From positions 62,001 through 126,000 of the forward strand of contig CAUJHV010000056.1 in NCBI GenBank assembly GCA_963205115.1: 64,000 nucleotides of DNA. The letters are read 5' to 3'. The position numbers were made by a program, and so were the translations under genes. The notes below the pieces were generated by a model that did not search any database, was not told the DNA's origin, and saw nothing but the letters and a program-made list of their open reading frames with translations. Of the stretch, positions 6,186 to 19,778 are shown one piece after another; position 1 is the first letter of the stretch; every line of letters starts with the position of its first letter. The stretch comes from Pseudomonadota bacterium. GTDB taxonomy: Bacteria; Pseudomonadota; Gammaproteobacteria; Burkholderiales; Burkholderiaceae_C.

Positions 6186-6240
6186 GGATGGCAGTGGGAG
6201 CAATGGGACACACGCATTCTCCCGGGGGGGCGTGCTTCGC

Positions 6241-6313
6241 GCGATATGCAATCGCAGCCATATGTGTGCGCACCGACCGTGGCGGGCAAGCTATGCGAAT
6301 GCCGACATATGGC
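6241..6313 (+). promoter_or_regulatory. Dyad-rich divergent control region between the two oxyanion-binding protein genes
   Basis: Three symmetric elements lie in this short spacer: GCGAT (6241-6245) and ATCGC (6251-6255) around ATGCA, and a pair GCCATATGT (6257-6265) and ACATATGGC (6305-6313) that are exact reverse complements with centres 47 bp apart. Such paired dyads suit a dimeric regulator controlling both divergent genes. A ModE/TunR-type Mo/W regulator is an inference from context; I cannot match a known consensus. Confidence 0.4.
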
Positions 6314-6343
6314 GCAATGACCGCAAGCCCTGAAGAATGGGTC

Positions 6344-7183
6344 ATGTCTGTCATCGCGTGTCGTCTCCTGGGCCTTTTGGCTGCCTTGTGCCTTCCGCTC
6401 GGCGCGAGGGCCCAGGCCGGCGTTGATCCGGCGCGGCCGGTCATTGCGGTTCATGCGGCCGGCAGCCTGCGCGCGGTCATGACCGATCTGGCGCAGGACT
6501 TCGAGCGCACGCCCGCCGCGGCCGGCGCCGCCGTGCGCCTGACCTTCGGCGCGTCCGGCTTGCTCAAGGACCGCATCGCCGGCGGCGAACCCGCGCAGGT
6601 CTTCGCGTCGGCCAACATGGAACACCCAGAGGCGCTGCGTGCGGCGGGCAAGGCCGAGAGCGTCGAGCCGTTTGCGCGCAATGCCTTGTGCGCGCTTTCG
6701 TCGCCAACGTTTGGCCTGCAGGGACGCGGACTCGTGGCGCGCCTGCTCGACGCCGATGTGCGCCTGGCCATCTCGACGCCCAAGGCCGATCCGGCCGGTG
6801 ACTACGCCTTTGCGATGTTCGAGCGCGTCGAGTCCACTGGCACAGGGCCGGCGGGCAGCGCGGCGGCGCTGAAGGCCAGGGCACAGCAGCTCACCGGCGG
6901 GCCGCAGCACCCGCCGCCGCCCGCCGGGCGCAATGTCTATGGCGTTCTGATGGCCGAGGGCCGCGCCGACGTCTTCATCACCTACTGCACCAATGCCCGG
7001 CAAGCCGCCCAGGAAGTGCCGGGGCTGCAGGTGATCGATGTGCCGGCGGCGGTCAATGTCTCGGCGCTCTACGGCATGGCCACGCTGCGCCCGGTGACCC
7101 CGGCGGCGCAGGCCTTCGTGCGATTTGTGCAGGGTGACGCGGGCCAGGCGGTGTTGCGCCGCCACGGATTCGCTGCGCCTTGA
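6344..7183 (+). CDS. Molybdate-type extracellular solute-binding protein (ModA-like), orphan
   Basis: 279 residues. MSVIACRLLGLLAALCLPLGARAQA is a good signal peptide, which decides the ATG at 6344; the open frame continues upstream to 6188 without signal-like sequence. The mature part begins IAVHAAGSLRAVMTDLAQDFE and has FGASGLLKDRIAGGEPAQVFASA, the hallmark of ModA proteins (compare AASL..., SG.L..QI..GAP.DVFIS). No ModB or ModC is adjacent. The gene is divergent from the TupA-like gene and upstream of the molybdoenzyme locus. It may be a specialised receptor borrowing a permease elsewhere. Confidence 0.83.
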   Translation: MSVIACRLLGLLAALCLPLGARAQAGVDPARPVIAVHAAGSLRAVMTDLAQDFERTPAAAGAAVRLTFGASGLLKDRIAGGEPAQVFASANMEHPEALRAAGKAESVEPFARNALCALSSPTFGLQGRGLVARLLDADVRLAISTPKADPAGDYAFAMFERVESTGTGPAGSAAALKARAQQLTGGPQHPPPPAGRNVYGVLMAEGRADVFITYCTNARQAAQEVPGLQVIDVPAAVNVSALYGMATLRPVTPAAQAFVRFVQGDAGQAVLRRHGFAAP

Positions 7184-7255: not shown

Positions 7256-8598
<1,343 letters not shown>

Positions 8599-8602
<4 letters not shown>

Positions 8603-10473
8603 GCGTCCATTTCCCGCGTCGCGGCATCGGCATCCGGCAGCGCCCATTCGATGCGCGTGCCGCGCCCGAGCTCGCTGGTCGCGCGGATCCAGCCCTGGCG
8701 CTGTTCGATCAGCGATTTGCAGATGGCCAGCCCCAGGCCCGTGCCGCGCTGGCCGTCCGCACGCCGGCTGTAGAAGGGCAGAAAGATCAAGGGCAGGCGC
8801 TCGGCGTCGATGCCCACGCCGCCGTCCTGCAGTTCCATGCGCACCATGCGGTTCTCGCGCCAGGCCCGGATGTGGATGTCGCCGCCGGCTGGCATCGCGT
8901 GCACCGCGTTCTGCACCACGTTCACCAGCACCTGGCGCAATTCTCCTTCGTCGCCCAGCGCACGCAAGGCGGGCCCGCGCAGATCGACATGCACGCGCAC
9001 GGACGCCCGGCGGATCTCTTCGCCCAGCACGGTCAGCACATCCTCGACGGCATCGTGCACCGCCACCGGCAGCGACTGCTCGGCCGATGGCTGGCTCAGG
9101 CGCAGCAGGCGCTGGGTGATGTGCACGCAGCGGTCGATCTGCTGGTCCACGACGCGCAGATAGTGCTCCAGTTCGTCGCGCTCCAGGCTGTCGTCGGCCA
9201 GGCCGCGCAGGCAGGTCTGCAGCGCCAGGCGGATGGAGGCCAGCGGGTTGTGGATCTCGTGCGCCACGCCGTTGGCCAGCAGGCCGATGGCGCTGAGACG
9301 CTGTTCCTGCGAGAAGCGCACGCGCTCCTGCAGCGGGCGGATGACCTCGACGATCTGCCAGCGGCCCTGCACATCGTGCACGGGTGCGGCGTCCAGCTCG
9401 ACATCCACGCGCTGCCCGTCGGCGCTGACAAAGTCCATCACCATGCGCCCGGAGGTACCGGTCTGGCGGCACTCCGCCAGCGGGCAGTGCACCAGGGTCG
9501 ACGGGCAGGGCTCGCTGCGCCCGCGGCTGATGCGGTAGCAGGGCTGCCCCACGATGTGGTTGATGGGCCGGCCGATCAGCCGCCCATAGGCGGCGTTGGC
9601 CATCACGATGCGGTGGTCCTCGCCGATCAGCAGCATTGCGTCCGGTGCGCCATCCAGCAGCGATTGCAGGAAGGCGCCGTGTCCGGCCAGGGCGGCGACC
9701 TGGCTCTGGATCTGGCCGGCCATGCGGTCGAAGCCCTGGCCCAGTCGGGCCAGTTCGTCGTGGCCCGCGCGCGCCTGCCGCACTGCCAGGTCGCCAGCGC
9801 CGAAGCGGTCCATCACATCGCGCAGGTTGACCACCGGCTCCAGCACGGTGCGGCGCAGCACCCACGCCACCCAGGCGGCCAGCGCGGCCAGCACCAGCAG
9901 CGCGGCCGGCAGCAGCCGGCGGCTGGCCGCATTGCGCGCGGCCAGGTCGGCCTGGTTGGGCGAAAAGTCCAGCATCAGCACGCCGTTGACCGGGTTCGTG
10001 TCGGCAGGGCCGTGGCAGCCGGCGCAGGGGGCCTGGTTGCGCACCGGGTAGATCACGCGCAGCCGGCCGCCGGGGCCGTCCTCGATCCAGTTCAGGCGCG
10101 GCTCGGAGACCGCGCCGCAGCGAAGGTCCAGGCACAGCCCGTCCAGCTGCGCGCCGCGGTCCTGTCCACGCCGGTTGTCGGTGGACGAGGCAAAGCGCAC
10201 CTCGCCGGCGGGCGTCAGCAGCTCGGCCGATTGCACGCCGGGCAAGGTGCCCAGGTGGGCGATGAGGCGCGACAGACCGTCCAGGTCACGCTGCAGCATG
10301 GCGTTGCGCAGGCTGGACTCGAACAGCGAGGCCATGCGCAGCGAGGACTGCTCCACCTCGTGGTGCAGCGCGGCCTGGCCGATCCAGACGGATACGGCCA
10401 GCAAGGCGGCGGCGCCGGCCACGAAGCCCGGCGCCAGCCACGACGCGATGCGCCGCGACAGCGGCGACATCAT
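8599..10473 (-). CDS. Membrane histidine kinase with periplasmic c-type heme motif and Cys-rich PAS domain
   Basis: 624 residues. TM1 is about 13-33 and TM2 about 187-206, enclosing a periplasmic sensor of about 150 residues. That loop holds CAGCH (Cys150, Cys153, His154), a covalent heme c attachment motif. HAMP is about 207-260. A PAS domain (275-380) carries CYRISRGRSEPCPS followed by further cysteines, a known Cys-rich PAS variant. The HisKA phospho-acceptor is His405 in VAHEIHNPLAS; the ATPase domain has DGGVGID and GTGLGLAICK. Start ATG 10473 is chosen; the upstream frame opens only with TTG and lacks features. Probably a redox or ligand (NO, sulfur compound) sensor for the adjacent respiratory operon. 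Confidence 0.9.
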
Positions 10474-10599
10474 GATGCGGGCCCGCCGGCGGCGGGTGTG
10501 CTGGGCCGGAATCTCGTCGACCTTCCTGACAGGCAAAGCATAGGCAGCCTAACGGTTGAGACCGCCGGCGCGATTGACTGCGCGCAAGCGAGACCCGGG

Positions 10600-10663: not shown

Positions 10664-11323
10664 TCAACTTCCAACCGGTGTGTCCGCCGATGTCAGGCGG
10701 TCCAGAACATCCTTCAACGACAGGCAGGCCTGCGCGGTGAGCACCGCAAGCCCGGCATACAGACGGGTGTTCGCCCGCTGGTTGACGCGCTGCGCAAACG
10801 ACGGCAGCCAGACCAGCAGGTGACGCCCCATGAAATCCTTCGCCGCGACCAGGTCGCCGCGCGTGAGCAGGGCCGCGACGAAGGCCAGCTCATTGCACAG
10901 GTGGTCGTCGGGCATCTCGCGCCAGTCGCGCACGGCCAGGCCGTGGCGACGGTAGTCCTCGCGCACCTCGAAAGTCGACCCCTGCCACATCAGGTGGTCC
11001 TCGTCGCGCCAGACCGACTCACAAGGCGACGCGCGCAGCGCGTGGGTCAGGTAGATCGCCGCGTAGTCGGCCGCCAGTTCGTCGTCCGTGGCCTGCGGGT
11101 CGGCTTCGGCGCGCGGTCGCAGTGCCTGGAGCGCTTCGCCCATGCCGATCCGGGCCGGATCGTCCGGCGGCAGCAGCACCAGGCCCTGCGGGAAGCCGGT
11201 CTGCTCCAGCGCCATCCACACCGCACTCGGATGTTCACTCGCGTGCAGCCACGACAGCGTGCCCAGGTCCTCGGCGACCTGCGACCATGGCACGGCAGCG
11301 GCGGGGGTGACGACGGCGTCCAT
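10664..11323 (-). CDS. TorD/DmsD-family molybdoenzyme chaperone
   Basis: 219-residue all-helical protein. ADYAAIYLTHALRASPCESV matches the TorD/DmsD family motif (Y..lF......p..S.w). These cytoplasmic chaperones bind the twin-arginine leader of a DMSO-reductase-family subunit and hold it for cofactor loading. ATG 11323 overlaps the TGA of the ferredoxin gene (TGATG). Last gene of the operon before a strong terminator. Its client should be the DmsA-like protein at 12033-14603. Confidence 0.88.
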   Translation of the reverse strand: MDAVVTPAAAVPWSQVAEDLGTLSWLHASEHPSAVWMALEQTGFPQGLVLLPPDDPARIGMGEALQALRPRAEADPQATDDELAADYAAIYLTHALRASPCESVWRDEDHLMWQGSTFEVREDYRRHGLAVRDWREMPDDHLCNELAFVAALLTRGDLVAAKDFMGRHLLVWLPSFAQRVNQRANTRLYAGLAVLTAQACLSLKDVLDRLTSADTPVGS

Positions 11324-12021
11324 CAGACCCTGCCCTTCGTGTGCGGCACGAACACGATCGAGGGATGGGTCAGCTCGGGGTCGGCAAAGTGCTTGACCTG
11401 CCCGACCACCTTCTCGTTCGGCCCGACGGCCTTGGTGGCGTAGGTGCCGGCGCGCAGTTCGTCGATCGGGCCGATGTCCAGCACGCGCATCATGCAGGCC
11501 ATCACGCAGTAGGGCTTGCGGCCCACCTCCAGCTCGTCAATGCACATGTTGCACTTCTTGACGAGGTTGTCGCTGGGGTCGTATTGCGGCGCGCCGTAGG
11601 GGCAGGCGGCCTCGCAGCGGCGGCAGCCGATGCACAGCGTGGAGTCGATGTCCACCACGCCGTTGTCCGCGCGCTTCCAGATGGCCCCGGTCGGGCAGCT
11701 GGGCAGGCAGGCCGGCTCCGCGCAGTGGTTGCACGACATGTTCACCTTGTAGGCGAACACGTCCGGGAAGCTGCCGCCTTCGTTGTACATCACGCGGCGG
11801 AAGCGCGGACCGGGGGCCAGGCCGTTTTTGTCCTTGCAGGCGATCTCGCAGGCGCGGCAGCCGATGCAGTCGACGTTGTTGTGCACGAAGCCCAGCTGCT
11901 TGGCCGGCTTGACGGGTTCGTAGGTGGTCGCGTCGCGCCGCGCCTGGGCCGCCGGCACGGCGGCCTTGGCTTCGGTCGAGAGCTTGTTGATGCGCACGGG
12001 TTGCGGGGTGGGATCAGCCAT
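11323..12021 (-). CDS. DmsB-like ferredoxin subunit with four [4Fe-4S] motifs
   Basis: 232-residue electron-transfer subunit. Four cysteine groups are visible: CIGCRACEIACK, CNHCAEPACLPSCP, CIGCRRCEAACPYG and CNMC..CVMAC, predicting four [4Fe-4S] clusters as in DmsB, NrfC and TtrB. No Tat signal of its own, so it would be co-exported with the Tat-bearing catalytic subunit. ATG 12021 has TGAGG about 10 nt upstream. It follows the catalytic gene by 11 bp. No DmsC/NrfD-type membrane anchor is encoded nearby; the pentaheme cytochrome may replace it. Confidence 0.92.
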   Translation of the reverse strand: MADPTPQPVRINKLSTEAKAAVPAAQARRDATTYEPVKPAKQLGFVHNNVDCIGCRACEIACKDKNGLAPGPRFRRVMYNEGGSFPDVFAYKVNMSCNHCAEPACLPSCPTGAIWKRADNGVVDIDSTLCIGCRRCEAACPYGAPQYDPSDNLVKKCNMCIDELEVGRKPYCVMACMMRVLDIGPIDELRAGTYATKAVGPNEKVVGQVKHFADPELTHPSIVFVPHTKGRV

Positions 12022-12032
12022 GTTGCGTTGCC

Positions 12033-14603
12033 TCAATCACCGCGACGGAAGATGCCGGAACGGGCGATGGCGAGCGTGTCCCAACCGGGCCGGTGCGCCA
12101 GTTCGGTCTTGCGAATGCCCACCAGCACCGTGTTGTAGGCAAAGGCGCCTGCCGGACTGGGTTGGTCCGCGGTGAGGAAGTCGGGGTTGCCGGCGCGGTC
12201 GATGCCCTTGTCGTCCAGGTCCATCCACGCACCTTCGTACAGCACCGCCACGCCGGGCAGGCAGCGCTCGGTCACGTAGACCGGCACGATGCAGCTGCCG
12301 CGGTCGTTGTAGACCTCCACCGTGTCGCCGGTCACCAGTCCCAGACGCTTGGCATCACTGGCGTTGACGGTGACCTCCTGTGTGCAGGTCTCCCGCAGCC
12401 AGCCGATGTTGTGATAGATCGAATGCGTGCGTTCGCGCGGGTGCGGCGAGATCAGGTGGAACGGGTACTGTTGGGTCTTCGGATGGTTCAGCGATTCGAA
12501 AGGCTCGATCCACTTCGGGATCGCCGGGATGGGGTAGCCGTACTGGGTCTTCTTCCAGTCGGTGATGCCCGCCAGGTAGGGGCTGAAGATCTCGATCTTG
12601 CCGGAGCCGGTTTCGAACTTCTCGCCGTGTTCGATCTGGCGGCGGAAGGCAACCTGCGGCTCCTTGAAGGTGAACTTGTAGACGCCGCGCTGCTTGAACT
12701 CCTGCCAGCTCATCGTCACGCCCTGGTGCGCGCGCACCTTGCCGTTCCACCAGGCGGTGAGGTAGGCCTCGTCCACTGCGTCGGGGTTGCGGAAGTAGCT
12801 GCGCGTGGCGCGCGGGTTGTAGCGCTGGCCCAGGCCCTTGAGCTTGGGGTCCAGCGCCTCGAGGCGGTACGAGAGTTCGGTGAAGACCTGGAGGTCGGTC
12901 TTGCTCTCGCCCAGCGGCTCGATGACCTTCGGACGGTGGATGTAGTAGTGGCCCTTGTACCAGGGCAGGGCCACGTCGTGGCGCTCGAAGTGCGTGGAGA
13001 TCGGCAGCAGCACATCGGCCCACAGGCCCGAGGGCGTGATGGTCGCGTCCATGCAGACCACGAGTTCGAGCTTCTTGATGGCCTCGATCTGCTTGTTGAT
13101 GTGGGTCAGCTGATTGAACCAGTCCGAGCCCTGCCAGAAGATGGCCTTGATGTTGGGAATCTGGCCGTCGAGCTTGTCCTCGCGCGGCCAGAGTCCCACC
13201 TCCTCACGTGTGACGTTGGGGTAGTTCAGCACGCAGTGCGCCCAGCGGTCGCTCTTGATGCTGCCCCACCAGAGATTGGCGTTTTCGTCGTACGGGTAGG
13301 CCACGGATTCGGAGTGCCAGGCCTTGCCCACGCCCTCGGCGCTGCCGCCGAGCTTGCCGATGTTGCCGGTGATGGTCTGCACGGCCGCGGCCATGCGGTT
13401 GTACTGCTCGCCGTAGGCGGCGCGGCCGGGCGCCCAGCTGGCTTTCAGCGCGGCCGGCTTGGTCGTGGCGTACAGGCGCGCGAGCTTGCGGATGTCCTCG
13501 GCCTTGACGCCGCAGATGGCCTCGGCCCATTCCGGTGATTTGGGTTGTTTGTCGTTCGTGCCGAGGATGTAGTCCTTGAAGTTCTCGGCGTTGGCCCACT
13601 CCTTGGGCATGGTTCCCTTGTCGACGCCCAGCGCAAACCTGTCGATGAAGGCCTGGTCCTGCAGGTTCTCCGTGAAGATCACGTGGGCCATGGCCGCCAG
13701 CATCGCGGCATCGGTATTGGGCTTGATCGGGATCCACCACGCGTCGTAGGCGGAGGCCGAATCGGTGTACTGCGGGTCCACCAGCACGAACTTGCAGCCA
13801 CGCTGCTTGGCCATGCGCATGTAGTAGAAGGTGTTGCCGCCGTGGAAGGTGTAGGCCGGGTTCCAGCCCCACATGATGATCAGCTTGCTGTGCGCGAAGG
13901 CATCGTCCTCGTTGCCGTCTTCGATGGTGCCGAAGGTGATGCGGCTGCTGAAGGTGGTGCCCTGGTAGCTGGGCACGCTCCAGCTGTTGGTGCGGCAGCC
14001 GAACATGCCGAGGAACCGGCCCAGCAGGCCTTCGATCTGGTCGCTCTTGTGCAGCACGCCGTAGCTGGCGCCGGCGTAGCTCTGGTCCAGGATCGCCGTG
14101 GGCCCATAGGTCTTCTTCAGCTGGGTCATCTTCCTGGCGATGTGGTCCAGCGCCTCGTCCCAGCTCACGCGCTTGAACTTGCCTTCGCCGCGCTCGCCCA
14201 CGCGCATCATCGGGTAGAGCAGACGTTCCGGTGAATACAGGCGGTAGCGGTACGAGCGCCCGCGCAGGCAGGCGCGCAGCTGCGGTTCGTCCACCGTGTC
14301 CTTGCCGAAGAAACCGCCCTTCTGGTAGCGGCCGTCGTCGCTGGACAGGCGCACGATCACATCGCCCTTCTTGTGCGCCACCAGCATGTGGCGCGAGCCG
14401 CAGTTGTGCGCGCAGGAGGTGACGACGGTGGTCAGCTGGTCGTCGGTCGGGTAGGGCTCGTAGGCGAAGGCCGCGGCCTTCTTCGGGAAGCCGGCCAGGC
14501 TGACGAGACCCGTGGCGCCGACGAGCTTGAGGAAGTCGCGGCGCGTGGCGGAAGCGCCGCCGCCGACGGTGAATTGCTCGAGAAGGGTCTGGCCCGGGTT
14601 CAC
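12033..14603 (-). CDS. DmsA-like molybdopterin oxidoreductase, Tat-exported (S-/N-oxide reductase family)
   Basis: 856-residue catalytic subunit of the DMSO reductase family. The Tat signal is ATRRDFLKLVGATG (residues about 19-32). Long stretches resemble E. coli DmsA/YnfE, for example YSPERLLYPMMRVGERGEGK, WIPIKPNTDAA and the C-terminal SPHPRERTHSIYHN region. The N-terminal FS0 cluster motif is C64-x3-C68-x3-H72 ... C112: the third cysteine of DmsA is His here. The Mo-ligand region (TNSWSVPSYQG) offers Ser rather than Cys, as in DmsA; this alignment is by eye. GTG 14603 overlaps the cytochrome stop (GTGA). Likely a periplasmic oxo-transfer reductase for a sulfoxide, N-oxide or similar acceptor; the substrate is unknown. 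Confidence 0.9.
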   Translation of the reverse strand: MNPGQTLLEQFTVGGGASATRRDFLKLVGATGLVSLAGFPKKAAAFAYEPYPTDDQLTTVVTSCAHNCGSRHMLVAHKKGDVIVRLSSDDGRYQKGGFFGKDTVDEPQLRACLRGRSYRYRLYSPERLLYPMMRVGERGEGKFKRVSWDEALDHIARKMTQLKKTYGPTAILDQSYAGASYGVLHKSDQIEGLLGRFLGMFGCRTNSWSVPSYQGTTFSSRITFGTIEDGNEDDAFAHSKLIIMWGWNPAYTFHGGNTFYYMRMAKQRGCKFVLVDPQYTDSASAYDAWWIPIKPNTDAAMLAAMAHVIFTENLQDQAFIDRFALGVDKGTMPKEWANAENFKDYILGTNDKQPKSPEWAEAICGVKAEDIRKLARLYATTKPAALKASWAPGRAAYGEQYNRMAAAVQTITGNIGKLGGSAEGVGKAWHSESVAYPYDENANLWWGSIKSDRWAHCVLNYPNVTREEVGLWPREDKLDGQIPNIKAIFWQGSDWFNQLTHINKQIEAIKKLELVVCMDATITPSGLWADVLLPISTHFERHDVALPWYKGHYYIHRPKVIEPLGESKTDLQVFTELSYRLEALDPKLKGLGQRYNPRATRSYFRNPDAVDEAYLTAWWNGKVRAHQGVTMSWQEFKQRGVYKFTFKEPQVAFRRQIEHGEKFETGSGKIEIFSPYLAGITDWKKTQYGYPIPAIPKWIEPFESLNHPKTQQYPFHLISPHPRERTHSIYHNIGWLRETCTQEVTVNASDAKRLGLVTGDTVEVYNDRGSCIVPVYVTERCLPGVAVLYEGAWMDLDDKGIDRAGNPDFLTADQPSPAGAFAYNTVLVGIRKTELAHRPGWDTLAIARSGIFRRGD

Positions 14604-15448
14604 GGCTTGGCTCCCGCAGGGGTCGGATGGTTGGTGGGTGTCAGGCGGAATCGGGCTTCCGGCGCATTCGCACGGCCCTTGGCCCAGTCCGGCACCTCGG
14701 GCGCCATGCCTTCCCATGGGGTGCGTGTGTAGGGGTAGGTGGTGCGGTACCAGGCGCGGCCGCCGTGGCAGCCGTAGCAGGTGTCGCCGCCGCCCTTCGC
14801 GGCAGCCTCTTCGATGGCCGCGGCGTTGAGGTAGTTGACCTGGTGCCGGTTCGTGCGGATCGCCGCGTGGCACAGCAGGCAGTTGTCCTGGAACATGGCC
14901 TTGCTCTTGGGCCAGGGTTCGGGCAGACCCATGACGGTGTAATTCATCTGGCCGTGGCACTTCAGGCAGGTCGACTCGGGCGCCACCATCTTGCGCAGCG
15001 TGAAGCCGCCGGTGTGTTGCGAGGTGGCGGACGACAGCGGCGTCTCGTCGCGCGGGTCGTTGCCCTGGTGGCAGGTGGTGCAGCGCAGGTTCATCAGCTG
15101 CCTGGCCATCGGGGTGACCATGTGGCGGCGGTGGAACGTGTCCTGTTCGCCGGTGTAGGTGCTGGTCTGCTGGTACCAGGCTTTGGCGGCTGCGGCGCGC
15201 ACGCCGGCAGGCGAGGCGGGGCGTACGCTGGCCACGAGCACTTCCGCGTGGCAGGCCAGGCACTGTGCGTCGGTGGCCTGGTCGATCTGCGGCTTGAAGT
15301 GGATCGGGTCGTAGCGGGCGCGCTGGTAATCGACGGCGGGCGCGGCAGGCGCGGCGGCGGCCCAGGCGGTGAGGGCGACCGTGCTCAGCAGCGCGGCCAG
15401 GCGCATGAACCAGCCGGTTCGAGGTGCCGCGAGGCGTCGGGCAATCAT
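14600..15448 (-). CDS. Periplasmic pentaheme cytochrome c
   Basis: 282 residues with a Sec signal peptide (MRLAALLSTVALTAWAAAAPA) and five CxxCH motifs: CLACH (63-67), CTTCH (123-127), CLKCH (161-165), CLLCH (190-194) and CYGCH (224-228). Many extra histidines can act as distal ligands. ATG 15448 is preferred to an in-frame GTG at 15484. It is the electron-transfer partner of the molybdoenzyme that follows with a 4-nt overlap. It shows no membrane anchor beyond the signal, so it probably shuttles electrons from a quinol-oxidising cytochrome to the ferredoxin subunit. Confidence 0.9.
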   Translation of the reverse strand: MIARRLAAPRTGWFMRLAALLSTVALTAWAAAAPAAPAVDYQRARYDPIHFKPQIDQATDAQCLACHAEVLVASVRPASPAGVRAAAAKAWYQQTSTYTGEQDTFHRRHMVTPMARQLMNLRCTTCHQGNDPRDETPLSSATSQHTGGFTLRKMVAPESTCLKCHGQMNYTVMGLPEPWPKSKAMFQDNCLLCHAAIRTNRHQVNYLNAAAIEEAAAKGGGDTCYGCHGGRAWYRTTYPYTRTPWEGMAPEVPDWAKGRANAPEARFRLTPTNHPTPAGAKP

Positions 15449-15473
15449 GGTGTGTCGCTGGGGTTGTGGGGAT

Positions 15474-15500
15474 GACCGGGCCACCAGAGGCGGCCCGGTC
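15474..15500 (-). promoter_or_regulatory. Intercistronic stem-loop between the Met-rich gene and the cytochrome gene
   Basis: A perfect 9-bp GC-rich inverted repeat, GACCGGGCC (15474-15482) and GGCCCGGTC (15492-15500), with a 9-nt loop and no T-run. It sits in the 78-bp gap after the Met-rich repeat gene. It could act as an mRNA 3' stabiliser or partial terminator that lets the upstream secreted proteins be made in excess over the enzyme. That role is inferred. Confidence 0.55.
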
Positions 15501-15526
15501 GGACGGTCACTGGTGTGGGCGCGGAA

Positions 15527-16141
15527 TTACTTCTTGCCTTCCATGCCGGACATGCCGCTCATGCCGGACATGCCCTTCTGGCCTTCCATGCCAGACATTC
15601 CGCTCATGCCCTTCTGGCCTTGCATGCCCGACATGCCGCTCATGCCGGACATCCCGCTCATGCCCTTCTGGCCCTGCATGCCAGACATGCCGCTCATGCC
15701 GCTCATGCCAGACATGCCCTTCTGCCCTTGCATGCCGCTCATGCCCGACATCCCGCTCATGCCGGTCTGCGACGACTTCCGGGTCTTCTTCTTGGCCTTG
15801 GTCTTGCCTTCCATGCCGGACATGCCCGACATCCCTGACATGCCCTTCTGGCCTTGCATGCCGGACATGCCACTCATGCCCGACATGCCCTTCTGACCTT
15901 GCATGCCCGACATGCCGCTCATGCCGCTCATGCCGCTCATGCCCTTCTGGCCTTCCATGCCGGACATGCCCGACATCCCGGACATGCCCTTCTGGCCCTG
16001 CATGCCGGACATGCCGCTCATGCCTTTCTGGCCTTCCATGCCGGACATGCCGGACATGCCCTTCTGGTCTTGTGCGTAAGCTGAGCTGATCAGGGCGGCC
16101 ATAACCGTCATGACGCCGGCGACTTTGCGAAGTTGCTTCAT
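15527..16141 (-). CDS. Secreted methionine-rich Gly-X-Y (collagen-like) repeat protein
   Basis: 204 residues. The signal peptide MKQLRKVAGVMTVMAALISS ends near AYAQ. Everything after residue 27 is low complexity with Gly at every third position: blocks of GMS, GME, GMQ and GQK triplets, for example GMSGMSGMEGQK. Block 1 has 28 triplets (28-111) and block 2 has 26 (127-204). They are split by a basic linker (KTKAKKKTRKSSQ). By my count 44 methionines lie in the repeats and there is no Cys, Trp or proline. GGAG precedes the ATG. It lies inside the sigma-54 operon, upstream of a DMSO-reductase-family enzyme. Candidate roles: sacrificial oxidant scavenger (Met to MetSO), Cu(I) binding, or a structural fibre. 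I do not recognise a named family; it is not the MXKDX pentapeptide pattern. Confidence 0.88.
   Translation of the reverse strand: MKQLRKVAGVMTVMAALISSAYAQDQKGMSGMSGMEGQKGMSGMSGMQGQKGMSGMSGMSGMEGQKGMSGMSGMSGMSGMQGQKGMSGMSGMSGMQGQKGMSGMSGMSGMEGKTKAKKKTRKSSQTGMSGMSGMSGMQGQKGMSGMSGMSGMSGMQGQKGMSGMSGMSGMSGMQGQKGMSGMSGMEGQKGMSGMSGMSGMEGKK
15530..16060 (-). repeat. In-gene tandem 9-bp-derived repeat encoding Gly-Met-Ser triplets
   Basis: The DNA is a degenerate array of GGCATGAGC/GGCATGTCC units interrupted by GGCCAGAAG, covering nearly the whole mature protein. Synonymous codons vary between units (AGC/TCC/TCG, GGC/GGG). This argues that the amino acid pattern is selected rather than being a very recent slippage expansion. 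Length variation between strains is expected. Confidence 0.85.
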
Positions 16142-16206
16142 CTCATTTCTCCGTGTGGTGAGTGCTGCGTTGGGGTAATACGTGGGGCTGTCAGCCCGGC
16201 AGGTCC

Positions 16207-16221
16207 GCAGCAGACGTGCCT
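16207..16221 (-). promoter_or_regulatory. Possible second sigma-54 promoter in front of the Met-rich gene
   Basis: The minus strand reads AGGCACGTCTGCTGC. It has GG and GC separated by 10 nt and the GGCAC core of a -24/-12 element, differing from consensus at the -12 side (CTGC for TTGC). It shares GGCACGTC with the stronger site at 16619-16633. The predicted start near 16195 would give a leader of about 54 nt to the Met-rich gene. Confidence 0.4.
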
Positions 16222-16279
16222 TCAGCGTTCTTGCCGCCGTTGCGGCAATTCCGATGAACCTGGGCGGAACGGGCCTGGC

Positions 16280-16594
16280 TCAAGGCCGCGCTCCATGCAG
16301 TTGGCGAAGGTCGTAGCGACCGGGCATTCCGGGCTGGAACATGGGCGAGTACCACGCCCCTTGTTCGGCGATGCGCGCCAGGCCCGGGGGCCAGGGCGCC
16401 GACACACCGGCCAGGCGGCGCGTCTTCAGCGCGACATCCACCGTCAGGCCTTGAATCACCGGTGCCGACACGGGCCTGCGGTCGGGCTCCAGTCCGGCCA
16501 CGGGCGCCGTGGCGCCTTGCGCGCGAACCGCGGTGCCGATCAACAGCGTGGTGCTGGCGGCCATCAGGCTCAGGGCGCGGTATACGTTCGACAT
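16280..16594 (-). CDS. Small secreted protein of unknown function, first gene of the sigma-54 operon
   Basis: 104 residues with a convincing signal peptide (MSNVYRALSLMAASTTLLIG, cleavage after AVRAQ). The mature part of about 78 residues has no recognised motif. It is rich in Pro/Ala/Arg and has an aromatic C-terminal segment (QGAWYSPMFQPGMPGRYDL) but no Cys. ATG 16594 is fixed by a strong AGGAGG at 16601-16606. An exact -24/-12 sigma-54 element lies just upstream and gives a leader of only about 12 nt. It precedes the Met-rich gene by 138 bp. A periplasmic partner of the redox system is plausible but unproven. Confidence 0.75.
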   Translation of the reverse strand: MSNVYRALSLMAASTTLLIGTAVRAQGATAPVAGLEPDRRPVSAPVIQGLTVDVALKTRRLAGVSAPWPPGLARIAEQGAWYSPMFQPGMPGRYDLRQLHGARP

Positions 16595-16618
16595 GCAGGT
16601 CCTCCTGCCTCCTTCATC

Positions 16619-16633
16619 GCAAGCGACGTGCCA
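16619..16633 (-). promoter_or_regulatory. Sigma-54 (-24/-12) promoter of the Met-rich/molybdoenzyme operon
   Basis: The minus strand reads TGGCACGTCGCTTGC, an exact TGGCAC-N5-TTGC match with the invariant GG and GC 10 nt apart. The predicted +1 is near 16607, immediately before the AGGAGG and ATG 16594 of the first gene. The locus also encodes an NtrC-type activator with an intact GAFTGA loop (7256-8602), which is what such a promoter requires. Confidence 0.85.
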
Positions 16634-16694
16634 CACGTAACAGCGCCTCGAGGGCCTTTGAAATCAAGGACTTGGGCGCGTCGTCAGTCGCATC

Positions 16695-16733
16695 GGCCTG
16701 TCAATCTGGCAGGCCACATGACAGCTTGGCAGG
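16695..16733 (-). promoter_or_regulatory. Candidate upstream activator site for the NtrC-family regulator
   Basis: Arms GGCCTGTCA (16695-16703) and TGGCAGGCC (16707-16715) are inverted with one mismatch around a 3-nt centre. The half-site TGGCAGG recurs at 16727-16733, 20 bp along. The dyad centre is about 98 bp upstream of the predicted sigma-54 start, the usual position for enhancer-binding proteins. Which regulator binds is inferred from neighbourhood. Confidence 0.55.
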
Positions 16734-18865: not shown

Positions 18866-19249
18866 ATGATTCGCAGACTCACGCTGTCCGCCTTTGCCCT
18901 GACTGCCTTGCTGGCCGCGGGCTGTGCGTCCACGATGGGCGCCGGGGCCCCCGCCCGTGCCGCCGACGGGGTGCTGATCGGCTCCAACGGCATGGCGCTG
19001 TACACCTTCGACCGCGACGCCACCCCCGGCAAGAGCGCGTGCAACGGCCCCTGCGCCACCAACTGGCCGCCGCTGATGGCATCGGCCAGTGCAGCATCCA
19101 TGGGCGACTGGACCATCATCACGCGCGACGACGGCGGCAAGCAGTGGGCCTACAAGAGCAAGCCCCTGTACTTCTGGATCAAGGACCAGAAGCCGGGCGA
19201 CCGCACCGGCGACGGTTTCAACAACGTGTGGCACCTGGCGCGCCCCTGA
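18866..19249 (+). CDS. Secreted lipoprotein with COG4315-type repeats
   Basis: 127 residues. The lipobox LLAAGC predicts a lipid-anchored mature protein starting at Cys20. The body has two copies of the Lipoprotein_15-type motif (GMALYTFDRDATPGKSACNG with CATNWPP, then KPLYFWIKDQKPGDRTGDGF). Function of this widespread family is not established. It is 16 bp upstream of an ECF sigma factor gene, an association that is common and suggests control by the sigma/anti-sigma pair. Confidence 0.88.
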   Translation: MIRRLTLSAFALTALLAAGCASTMGAGAPARAADGVLIGSNGMALYTFDRDATPGKSACNGPCATNWPPLMASASAASMGDWTIITRDDGGKQWAYKSKPLYFWIKDQKPGDRTGDGFNNVWHLARP

Positions 19250-19265
19250 TCCGCACATTGCAGGT

Positions 19266-19778
19266 ATGGCTGTCGAAGAGATCCTGCCGCACATACCCGC
19301 CCTGCGCCGGTATGCGCGGCTGCTCACCGGCGACGCCACGCGGGCCGACGACCTGGTGCAGGACACGCTGGAGCGTGCCTGCCTGAAATGGGCGCTGTGG
19401 CAGCCCGGCTCGGTGCTGCGCACCTGGTTGCTGTCGATGATGCACAACCTGCACCGCAACCACCTGCGTGACTGGCGCCACGATGACGGCCATGCCGCGC
19501 TGGACGATGCGCCCGAGCCGGCGCACGACCCCTCCGCGCAGGCCGCCGACCGCCTGGACCTGCAGGACGCCCTGGCGGCGCTGCCCGCGCCCATGCGCGA
19601 GGTGATGCTGCTGGTGAACGTGGAAGAGTACAGCTACGCCGAAGCCGCCCAGATGCTGGGCGTGCCCGTGGGCACGGTGATGTCGCGCCTGCACCGCGCC
19701 CGCGAGCGCCTGCGGCAGACCATGGCGGACCCCGCGCCCGGGCGTCCGACGGCCAATCTCCAACTGGTGAAACGATGA
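19266..19778 (+). CDS. ECF-family RNA polymerase sigma factor
   Basis: 170 residues. Region 2 is LRRYARLLTGDATRADDLVQDTLERAC, close to the ECF consensus, and region 4 is YAEAAQMLGVPVGTVMSRLHRARERLR. No region 3, as expected. The linker is acidic and of normal length. ATG 19266 directs the family-typical N-terminus. The ATGA overlap with the next gene indicates co-translation with its anti-sigma factor. Confidence 0.93.
   Translation: MAVEEILPHIPALRRYARLLTGDATRADDLVQDTLERACLKWALWQPGSVLRTWLLSMMHNLHRNHLRDWRHDDGHAALDDAPEPAHDPSAQAADRLDLQDALAALPAPMREVMLLVNVEEYSYAEAAQMLGVPVGTVMSRLHRARERLRQTMADPAPGRPTANLQLVKR

Follow-up and report, generated by a model that had tools for sequence, protein, structure and literature searches.

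A conserved gene set pairing a secreted methionine-rich repeat protein with a DmsA-like molybdenum enzyme, and its possible role in methionine sulfoxide cycling

A secreted methionine-rich protein (MetR), a pentaheme cytochrome c and a DmsA-like molybdenum enzyme are encoded together in a real and conserved gene set, which we describe from a 64-kb stretch of DNA (hereafter the window) and from its relatives. The conservation in relatives, and not the window alone, marks the unit as more than chance. We hypothesize, tentatively and at somewhat less than an even chance, that the set is an envelope redox unit under sigma-54 control that cycles methionine sulfoxide on MetR. We consider this the best reading because of the gene content, the presumably Ser-ligated S-oxide reductase family to which the enzyme belongs, and the precedents from Azospira and Brucella.

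The gene unit and its recurrence

The sequence-only reading of this DNA had described six genes on one strand with a heme-motif kinase and an NtrC-type activator adjacent, and inspection of the ORFs together with Pfam and NCBIfam comparisons found every one of them (Table 1). Its claim that no DmsC-type anchor is encoded also held, as neither DmsC nor NrfD was found among the window ORFs compared with Pfam; likewise, the window's unit shows no recognisable quinol dehydrogenase of known type. The gene for the Mo subunit starts with a GTG at 14603 that overlaps the stop of the pentaheme gene, and its product carries a twin-arginine signal, as judged by eye. Sixteen Cys in four cluster motifs were counted by eye in the FeS subunit, and the heme motif of the kinase is a single periplasmic CAGCH. 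The small secreted protein sec1 had no match in Pfam or NCBIfam, and its relatives share the consensus DQGxWYTPFxxPGMTGPYDIRGWH. Beside the activator, at 6188-7183 (+), lies a gene for a secreted substrate-binding protein (SBP_bac_11), ModA-like by eye, which may supply molybdate.

Table 1. Positions of the features of the gene unit in the window.
Feature	Position	Strand	Remarks
Palindrome 1, TGNCA-N3-TGNCA	16719-16731		At -98 from the -24 element; putative NtrC-type activator site
Palindrome 2, TGNCA-N3-TGNCA	16699-16711		At -78
Sigma-54 type -24/-12 promoter, TGGCAC-N5-TTGC (TGGCACGTCGCTTGC)	16619-16633	-	
sec1, secreted, 104 aa	16280-16594	-	Alignment of 19
MetR, secreted Met-rich protein, 204 aa	15527-16141	-	
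Pentaheme cytochrome c, five CXXCH	14600-15448	-	
DmsA-like bis-MGD enzyme with Tat signal (Mo subunit)	12033-14603	-	Candidate Mo ligand Ser212; Cys64-Cys68-His72-Cys112
DmsB-like four-cluster ferredoxin subunit (FeS subunit)	11323-12036	-	Start codon uncertain, TTG in ORF list
TorD/DmsD-type chaperone	10664-11323	-	
Membrane histidine kinase, HAMP/PAS/HisKA, one periplasmic CXXCH	8599-10536	-	Start codon uncertain
NtrC-type sigma-54 response regulator	7256-8605	-	

The earlier reading would have been refuted by a lack of conserved gene order in relatives, and the unit does recur there. With the pentaheme cytochrome as the query (E <= 1e-30), matches were found in 15 of 369 genomes of the class, a count that includes the window's own genome and leaves out four genomes with a match only at E 1e-6 to 1e-3, and in 8 of 280 genomes of the window's order, its own again included. 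Thirteen named loci carry it, among them those of Azonexus, Azonexaceae, Dechloromonas, Ottowia beijingensis, Ca. Venteria ishoeyi and Thiomargarita, and a search of 99 other relatives, of which 59 share the window's genus, did not find it. Because this distribution is patchy, it suggests horizontal transfer of the gene set. Gene order in Ottowia beijingensis (L024) is that of the window, kinase and activator included, and the Thiomargarita locus is cut upstream, yet the end of the GM repeat is visible.

At 29 of the 34 distinct loci, counting that of the window, MetR lies upstream of the pentaheme gene; it was not found beside the operon at four (L027, L073, L102 and L103) and could not be assessed at one, L030, which is cut at the pentaheme gene itself. 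Twenty-seven pentaheme loci were compared first, and 24 of these have the Met-rich gene (23 by the pattern GMxGMxGM and L033 by protein similarity), always on the same strand and at most about 1.7 kb upstream, often with sec1 between; at some loci the contig ends inside the Met-rich gene, leaving it partial. Seven loci of the window's order were then added, with MetR present in L099, L100, L101, L104 and L105 and absent from L102 and L103; since L101 has the same sequence as L029, the sole duplicate among 38 loci compared, it was not counted again. In the genome of L073 a GM repeat does occur on another contig, in a 138-aa ORF with 9% Met, and in that of L103 the matches amount to one short GM run, in an 84-aa protein away from the operon, and some scattered others.

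Co-occurrence was assessed in the same 369 class genomes with a DNA pattern for GMxGMxGMxGM and a cut of at least six matches, which was reached in 15 of 15 pentaheme genomes vs. 5 of 354 others. One of the former, G222, has its six matches on another contig, in a 138-aa ORF with 9% Met. As for the five genomes without the pentaheme gene (G135, G230, G304, G337 and G372), MetR adjoins the same kinase at a contig end in G372 and G337, it stands with kinase and activator in G230, where the Mo, FeS and TorD genes are on another contig, and the matches in G304 come mainly from a GML repeat. A different partner for MetR in G230 was considered and rejected: its neighbours are YdbH, argininosuccinate synthase and MlaA, and the Mo operon is on the other contig. 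At least one match was present in 170 of the 369 genomes, and we take most of these small numbers to reflect the Gly-Met tail of GroEL. Tails of this type have been described (PMC11978752). In the order sample, at least six matches were found in 4 of 8 pentaheme genomes vs. 2 of 272 others, with one of the four, G611, reaching six by scattered matches only; the pattern is a poor probe in this order, where the repeat runs are short. Of the two others, G062 and G637, the former has a GMSGM array inside a CopA-type multicopper oxidase (L106 3535-5343, with a GMSGMSGM insert; TIGR01480, 936.9 bits, cut-off 478.95).

The repeat protein, the enzyme and the cytochrome

The window's MetR contains 47 Met, 56 Gly and 37 Ser among its 204 residues, with no Pro, Cys or His and no MXKDX motif. 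It has 33 GMS triplets, and Gly-X-X runs of 29 and 26 triplets flank a basic linker. The serines of the GMS triplets are encoded by 20 TCN and 13 AGY codons; such a mixture shows that the repeat did not arise by recent copying of one DNA unit but is held at the protein level. Runs of at least four Gly-X-X triplets make up 81% of the window's MetR and 24-100% of 30 relatives and fragments (ORF starts untrimmed), within which Met sits at X and only three times at Y, all three in L065. MetR in L104 and L105 is a looser variant with four Cys each, and MetR of L066 (L004) contains a stretch that resembles, by eye, the C-terminal part of a separate gammaproteobacterial secreted protein. With Gly at every third residue, MetR resembles the collagen-like proteins Scl and Lcl and scores 103.5 bits with Pfam Collagen; unlike them, it has Met filling X and falls far below the Lcl and Scl cut-offs, and membership among collagens was rejected for its complete lack of Pro. 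New here is the make-up of MetR as a Gly-X-X repeat that lacks Pro and has Met at X. At L065 (13910-14389) a Met-rich tail is fused to sec1, a hint that sec1 and MetR act in concert. Three gammaproteobacterial loci, L067 (7206-8030), L071 (11818-12657) and L078 (8648-9466), encode a further secreted protein, some 275 aa long, with RGW...DG.L.LYP repeats; the two members compared had no Pfam match.

The Mo subunit belongs to the Pfam Molybdopterin family (PF00384) and not to the sulfite-oxidase family. The best NCBIfam models for enzyme and FeS subunit are DmsA/YnfE and DmsB. The enzyme is DmsA-like, as proposed from the sequence alone, but by these models not a proper DmsA, the Mo subunit scoring 605.8 bits with DmsA TIGR02166 (cut-off 777.7) and the FeS subunit 195.3 bits with DmsB TIGR02951 (cut-off 214.1). 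The Mo subunits are 64-96% identical to each other (mean 76%) and 35-37% identical to E. coli DmsA, and 28 of them, the second copy in G131 included, are monophyletic with a support of 0.856; an earlier tree, in which a supposed BisC fragment split the clade, was replaced after this fragment was dropped. When 229 genomes were searched (E <= 1e-60, with up to four candidates scored per genome), identities were either at least 70% or at most 37%, with none between. The Mo subunit is a discrete clade.

C64, C68, H72 and C112 are present in 27 of 27 aligned Mo subunits, so that His replaces one Cys of the DmsA-type Cys-x3-Cys-x3-Cys...Cys motif throughout; E. coli DmsA, YnfE and YnfF have Cys at all four positions. 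A discrete clade in which one cluster Cys is replaced by His is also new here. S212, likewise found in 27 of 27, aligns with a Ser of the three E. coli enzymes, which we take to be the Mo ligand in DmsA-type enzymes. Around it, W208, W245, W247, Y251, F253 and H254 are fixed in 27 of 27 and differ from the E. coli enzymes, and with surroundings unlike those of DmsA the substrate may therefore differ. The alignment also places a Tyr where DorA has the Tyr of SYGW, and the closest solved structures by sequence are DMSO reductases, presumably of Rhodobacter. G131 has a second, orphan Mo subunit (L127 3239-5770) with no FeS, chaperone, pentaheme or MetR match in the 12 kb of its locus sequence.

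The pentaheme cytochrome has five CXXCH in 27 of 28 sequences and four in L032, with H50, H106, H109, H202 and K153 invariant. It is less conserved than the Mo subunit, at 47-66% vs. 68-80% identity to the window's protein. The window's protein matches PF03264 at positions 61-167 of 174 (32.5 bits, cut-off 24.1), a stretch that covers only part of the NapC/NirT model. Some relatives look membrane-anchored by eye, and the predicted structure is of low confidence (pLDDT 53.4, pTM 0.30). In all six loci compared, a polyferredoxin gene follows TorD (L064 6393-7442, L067 14541-15641, L069 14024-15160, L071 3466-4584, L077 5250-6208 and L104 11285-12313), preceded in L067 by a small cytochrome c; the polyferredoxin may belong to the electron path.

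Promoters, palindromes and the kinase

Both regulatory elements proposed earlier, an exact TGGCAC-N5-TTGC promoter and a dyad near -98, were recovered, the first as the only exact match in the 64-kb window and the second as the palindrome TGNCA-N3-TGNCA. The window's promoter alone is weak evidence, because its pattern with one mismatch matches three times vs. 8.5 expected by chance, fewer than in shuffled sequence. Similarly, the two upstream palindromes are the only two in the window, with 1.29 expected and as many in 36 of 100 shuffles. Among relatives, 23 first-gene regions were taken together with their 500 bp upstream, and 13 of them have a -24/-12 site on the same strand with no more than one mismatch, against a background of 0.03 per region that includes the sites themselves; L076 with L084 and L073 with L087 are pairs of one genus among these loci. 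A wider look adds sites at L031, L067 and L073, and in the order set such a site precedes the operon at two of seven loci, L099 and L100.

The palindrome was found in 19 of 20 regions (window included, L066 being the one without it) that had been selected for having a promoter, which at L033 and L069 shows two mismatches. Its density there, 33 sites in 5,000 bp vs. 12 in 364,272 bp elsewhere, is an approximately 200-fold enrichment that is partly circular because the motif was drawn from these same regions. Outside the 20, L021 and L028 have two palindromes each, 67 bp apart, followed 88 and 92 bp on by a weak promoter-like site with three mismatches. No palindrome was found at L027, L029 and L102-L105, whose locus sequence has no kinase or activator, and at L028, L065 and L073 palindromes are present with no kinase in the locus sequence; L023, L068, L074 and L075 are cut upstream and stand outside this comparison. 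The periplasmic CXXCH of the kinase is present in 16 of 16 aligned sequences, partial kinases and order loci being left out. The conserved -24/-12 promoters and upstream palindromes in relatives argue for the predicted sigma-54 control, and TGNCA-N3-TGNCA, a further new element, is probably the binding site of the NtrC-type activator.

Possible function and its alternatives

In the methionine sulfoxide cycle that we propose, the heme-carrying kinase would sense an envelope redox signal and phosphorylate the NtrC-type regulator, which would bind the conserved palindromes and fire the sigma-54 promoter. The operon would then export the methionine polymer MetR with its small partner sec1, and the Mo enzyme with its four-cluster subunit would follow by Tat. 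MetR methionines would take up oxidant as sulfoxides, and the Mo enzyme would reduce these with electrons passing from the quinol pool through the pentaheme cytochrome. We infer such a sink-and-recharge function from the co-conservation of MetR and enzyme, the DMSO-reductase-family enzyme with its candidate Ser ligand, and published precedents. Protein-bound MetO is a substrate of R. sphaeroides DorA, and free Met-R-O one of E. coli DmsA (PMC7402097); Azospira and Brucella each combine a Met-rich protein with a Mo enzyme that reduces MetO (PMC4623255, PMC8315932). Counting against the cycle are the four loci without MetR beside the operon, the active-site surroundings unlike DmsA, the orphan Mo copy of G131, the failure to recognise a quinol dehydrogenase in the window's unit, the retention of MsrP in many operon genomes and the occurrence of a GMSGM array in a copper-resistance oxidase. 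Replacement of MsrP in general periplasmic Met repair was also considered and set aside: 15 of 23 operon genomes (window's included) retain MsrP vs. 30 of 52 comparison genomes, which were picked by handle number and unmatched, with only 2 of 14 control genomes passing the MsrP cut-off, and as it is about equally frequent in both sets there is no sign of a stand-in. A more specific version, in which the secreted Gly-Met-Ser protein is a rechargeable thioether polymer that stores oxidant as sulfoxides to be respired via the dedicated Mo enzyme, seems to us unlikely; if true, one polymer would be both shield and electron acceptor, in a Met-cycling system assembled separately, with an enzyme clade of its own and a His in the cluster motif.

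The enzyme could instead serve respiration by reducing DMSO or some other small S- or N-oxide, with the pentaheme cytochrome replacing the DmsC input and MetR and sec1 serving as protection or scaffold. The best NCBIfam models point this way, pentaheme TorC is known to feed TorA (PMC11727998), and dmsA- and dmsB-like genes of Ca. Venteria ishoeyi, which may not be those of L031, have been read as DMSO respiration (PMC5728499). However, scores below the DmsA and DmsB cut-offs and differing active-site neighbours speak against it, and a Met polymer at 29 of 34 loci would go unexplained, so that we regard this alternative as rather doubtful. Another alternative, in which MetR would soak up Cu(I)/Ag(I) and the operon would be part of metal handling under low oxygen, draws on the array within the G062 oxidase and on CueO and CusF, which bind Cu(I) via Met, MsrP repairing oxidised CusF (PMC9302797). 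We think it distinctly improbable given that there is no copper gene among the window ORFs compared with Pfam and no His or Cys in the window's MetR, that the Mo reductase would have no evident role and that the kinase bears a heme motif. Reduction of an oxyanion such as chlorate, iodate or selenate, with MetR mopping up reactive by-products, would fit Dechloromonas and Azonexus among the hosts, the annotation of the relative YnfE as a selenate reductase and the mrpX and yedYZ genes that perchlorate islands carry against hypochlorite (PMC4623255), but no chlorite dismutase or peroxidase was found among the window ORFs compared with Pfam and with Ser as its candidate Mo ligand the enzyme stands apart from NarG and PcrA, which are of the Asp group (PMC10100899). 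This reading is very unlikely in our view.

Seen beside known systems, the gene set is most likely an analogue of MrpX-YedYZ of Azospira and BcrXQP of Brucella built from different parts. The plan in common is a secreted Met-rich repeat protein, a Mo enzyme that reduces MetO there and presumably here, and a dedicated regulator (PMC4623255, PMC8315932). BcrX has an MXKDX repeat and MrpX is called its homologue, whereas MetR has a Gly-Met-Ser repeat; their enzymes are of the MsrP/sulfite oxidase family (PMC7402097), the one here being of the DMSO-reductase family and partnered by an FeS subunit and a pentaheme cytochrome; and their regulators are a sigma/anti-sigma pair, in contrast to the heme-motif kinase and sigma-54 activator found here. 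DmsABC and YnfEFGH share a homologous Mo subunit, four-cluster subunit and chaperone with the unit, which differs in its low identity to DmsA, the Cys-to-His change and the addition of MetR and sec1, and in having a pentaheme cytochrome where no DmsC anchor was found.

The unit also recalls TorCAD, where a reductase for S-/N-oxides from this family is likewise accompanied by a pentaheme cytochrome and a TorD chaperone, and TorYZ and MtsZ have the same type of arrangement. E. coli TorA differs in having no cluster motif in the alignment, and its operon has no annotated Met-rich gene; a further difference is the partial NapC/NirT match of the pentaheme cytochrome in the window. No description of a DmsA-like operon that includes a Gly-Met-Ser repeat protein appears among the matches listed from open-licence full-text literature, and the main text of the paper that predicts DMSO respiration in Venteria was not found to contain the word methionine (PMC5728499). 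Some genes annotated as DMSO reductase in sulfur oxidisers and wastewater bacteria may belong to a methionine-polymer system, and if the enzyme reduces protein-bound sulfoxide it would add a respiratory MetO reductase clade. The unusual repeat protein, the His-for-Cys cluster motif and the defined activator motif are all directly testable. Elsewhere in the window, at 18866-19778 (+), a gene for a small secreted lipoprotein adjoins, by eye, an ECF-type sigma factor gene, followed by a possible anti-sigma gene.
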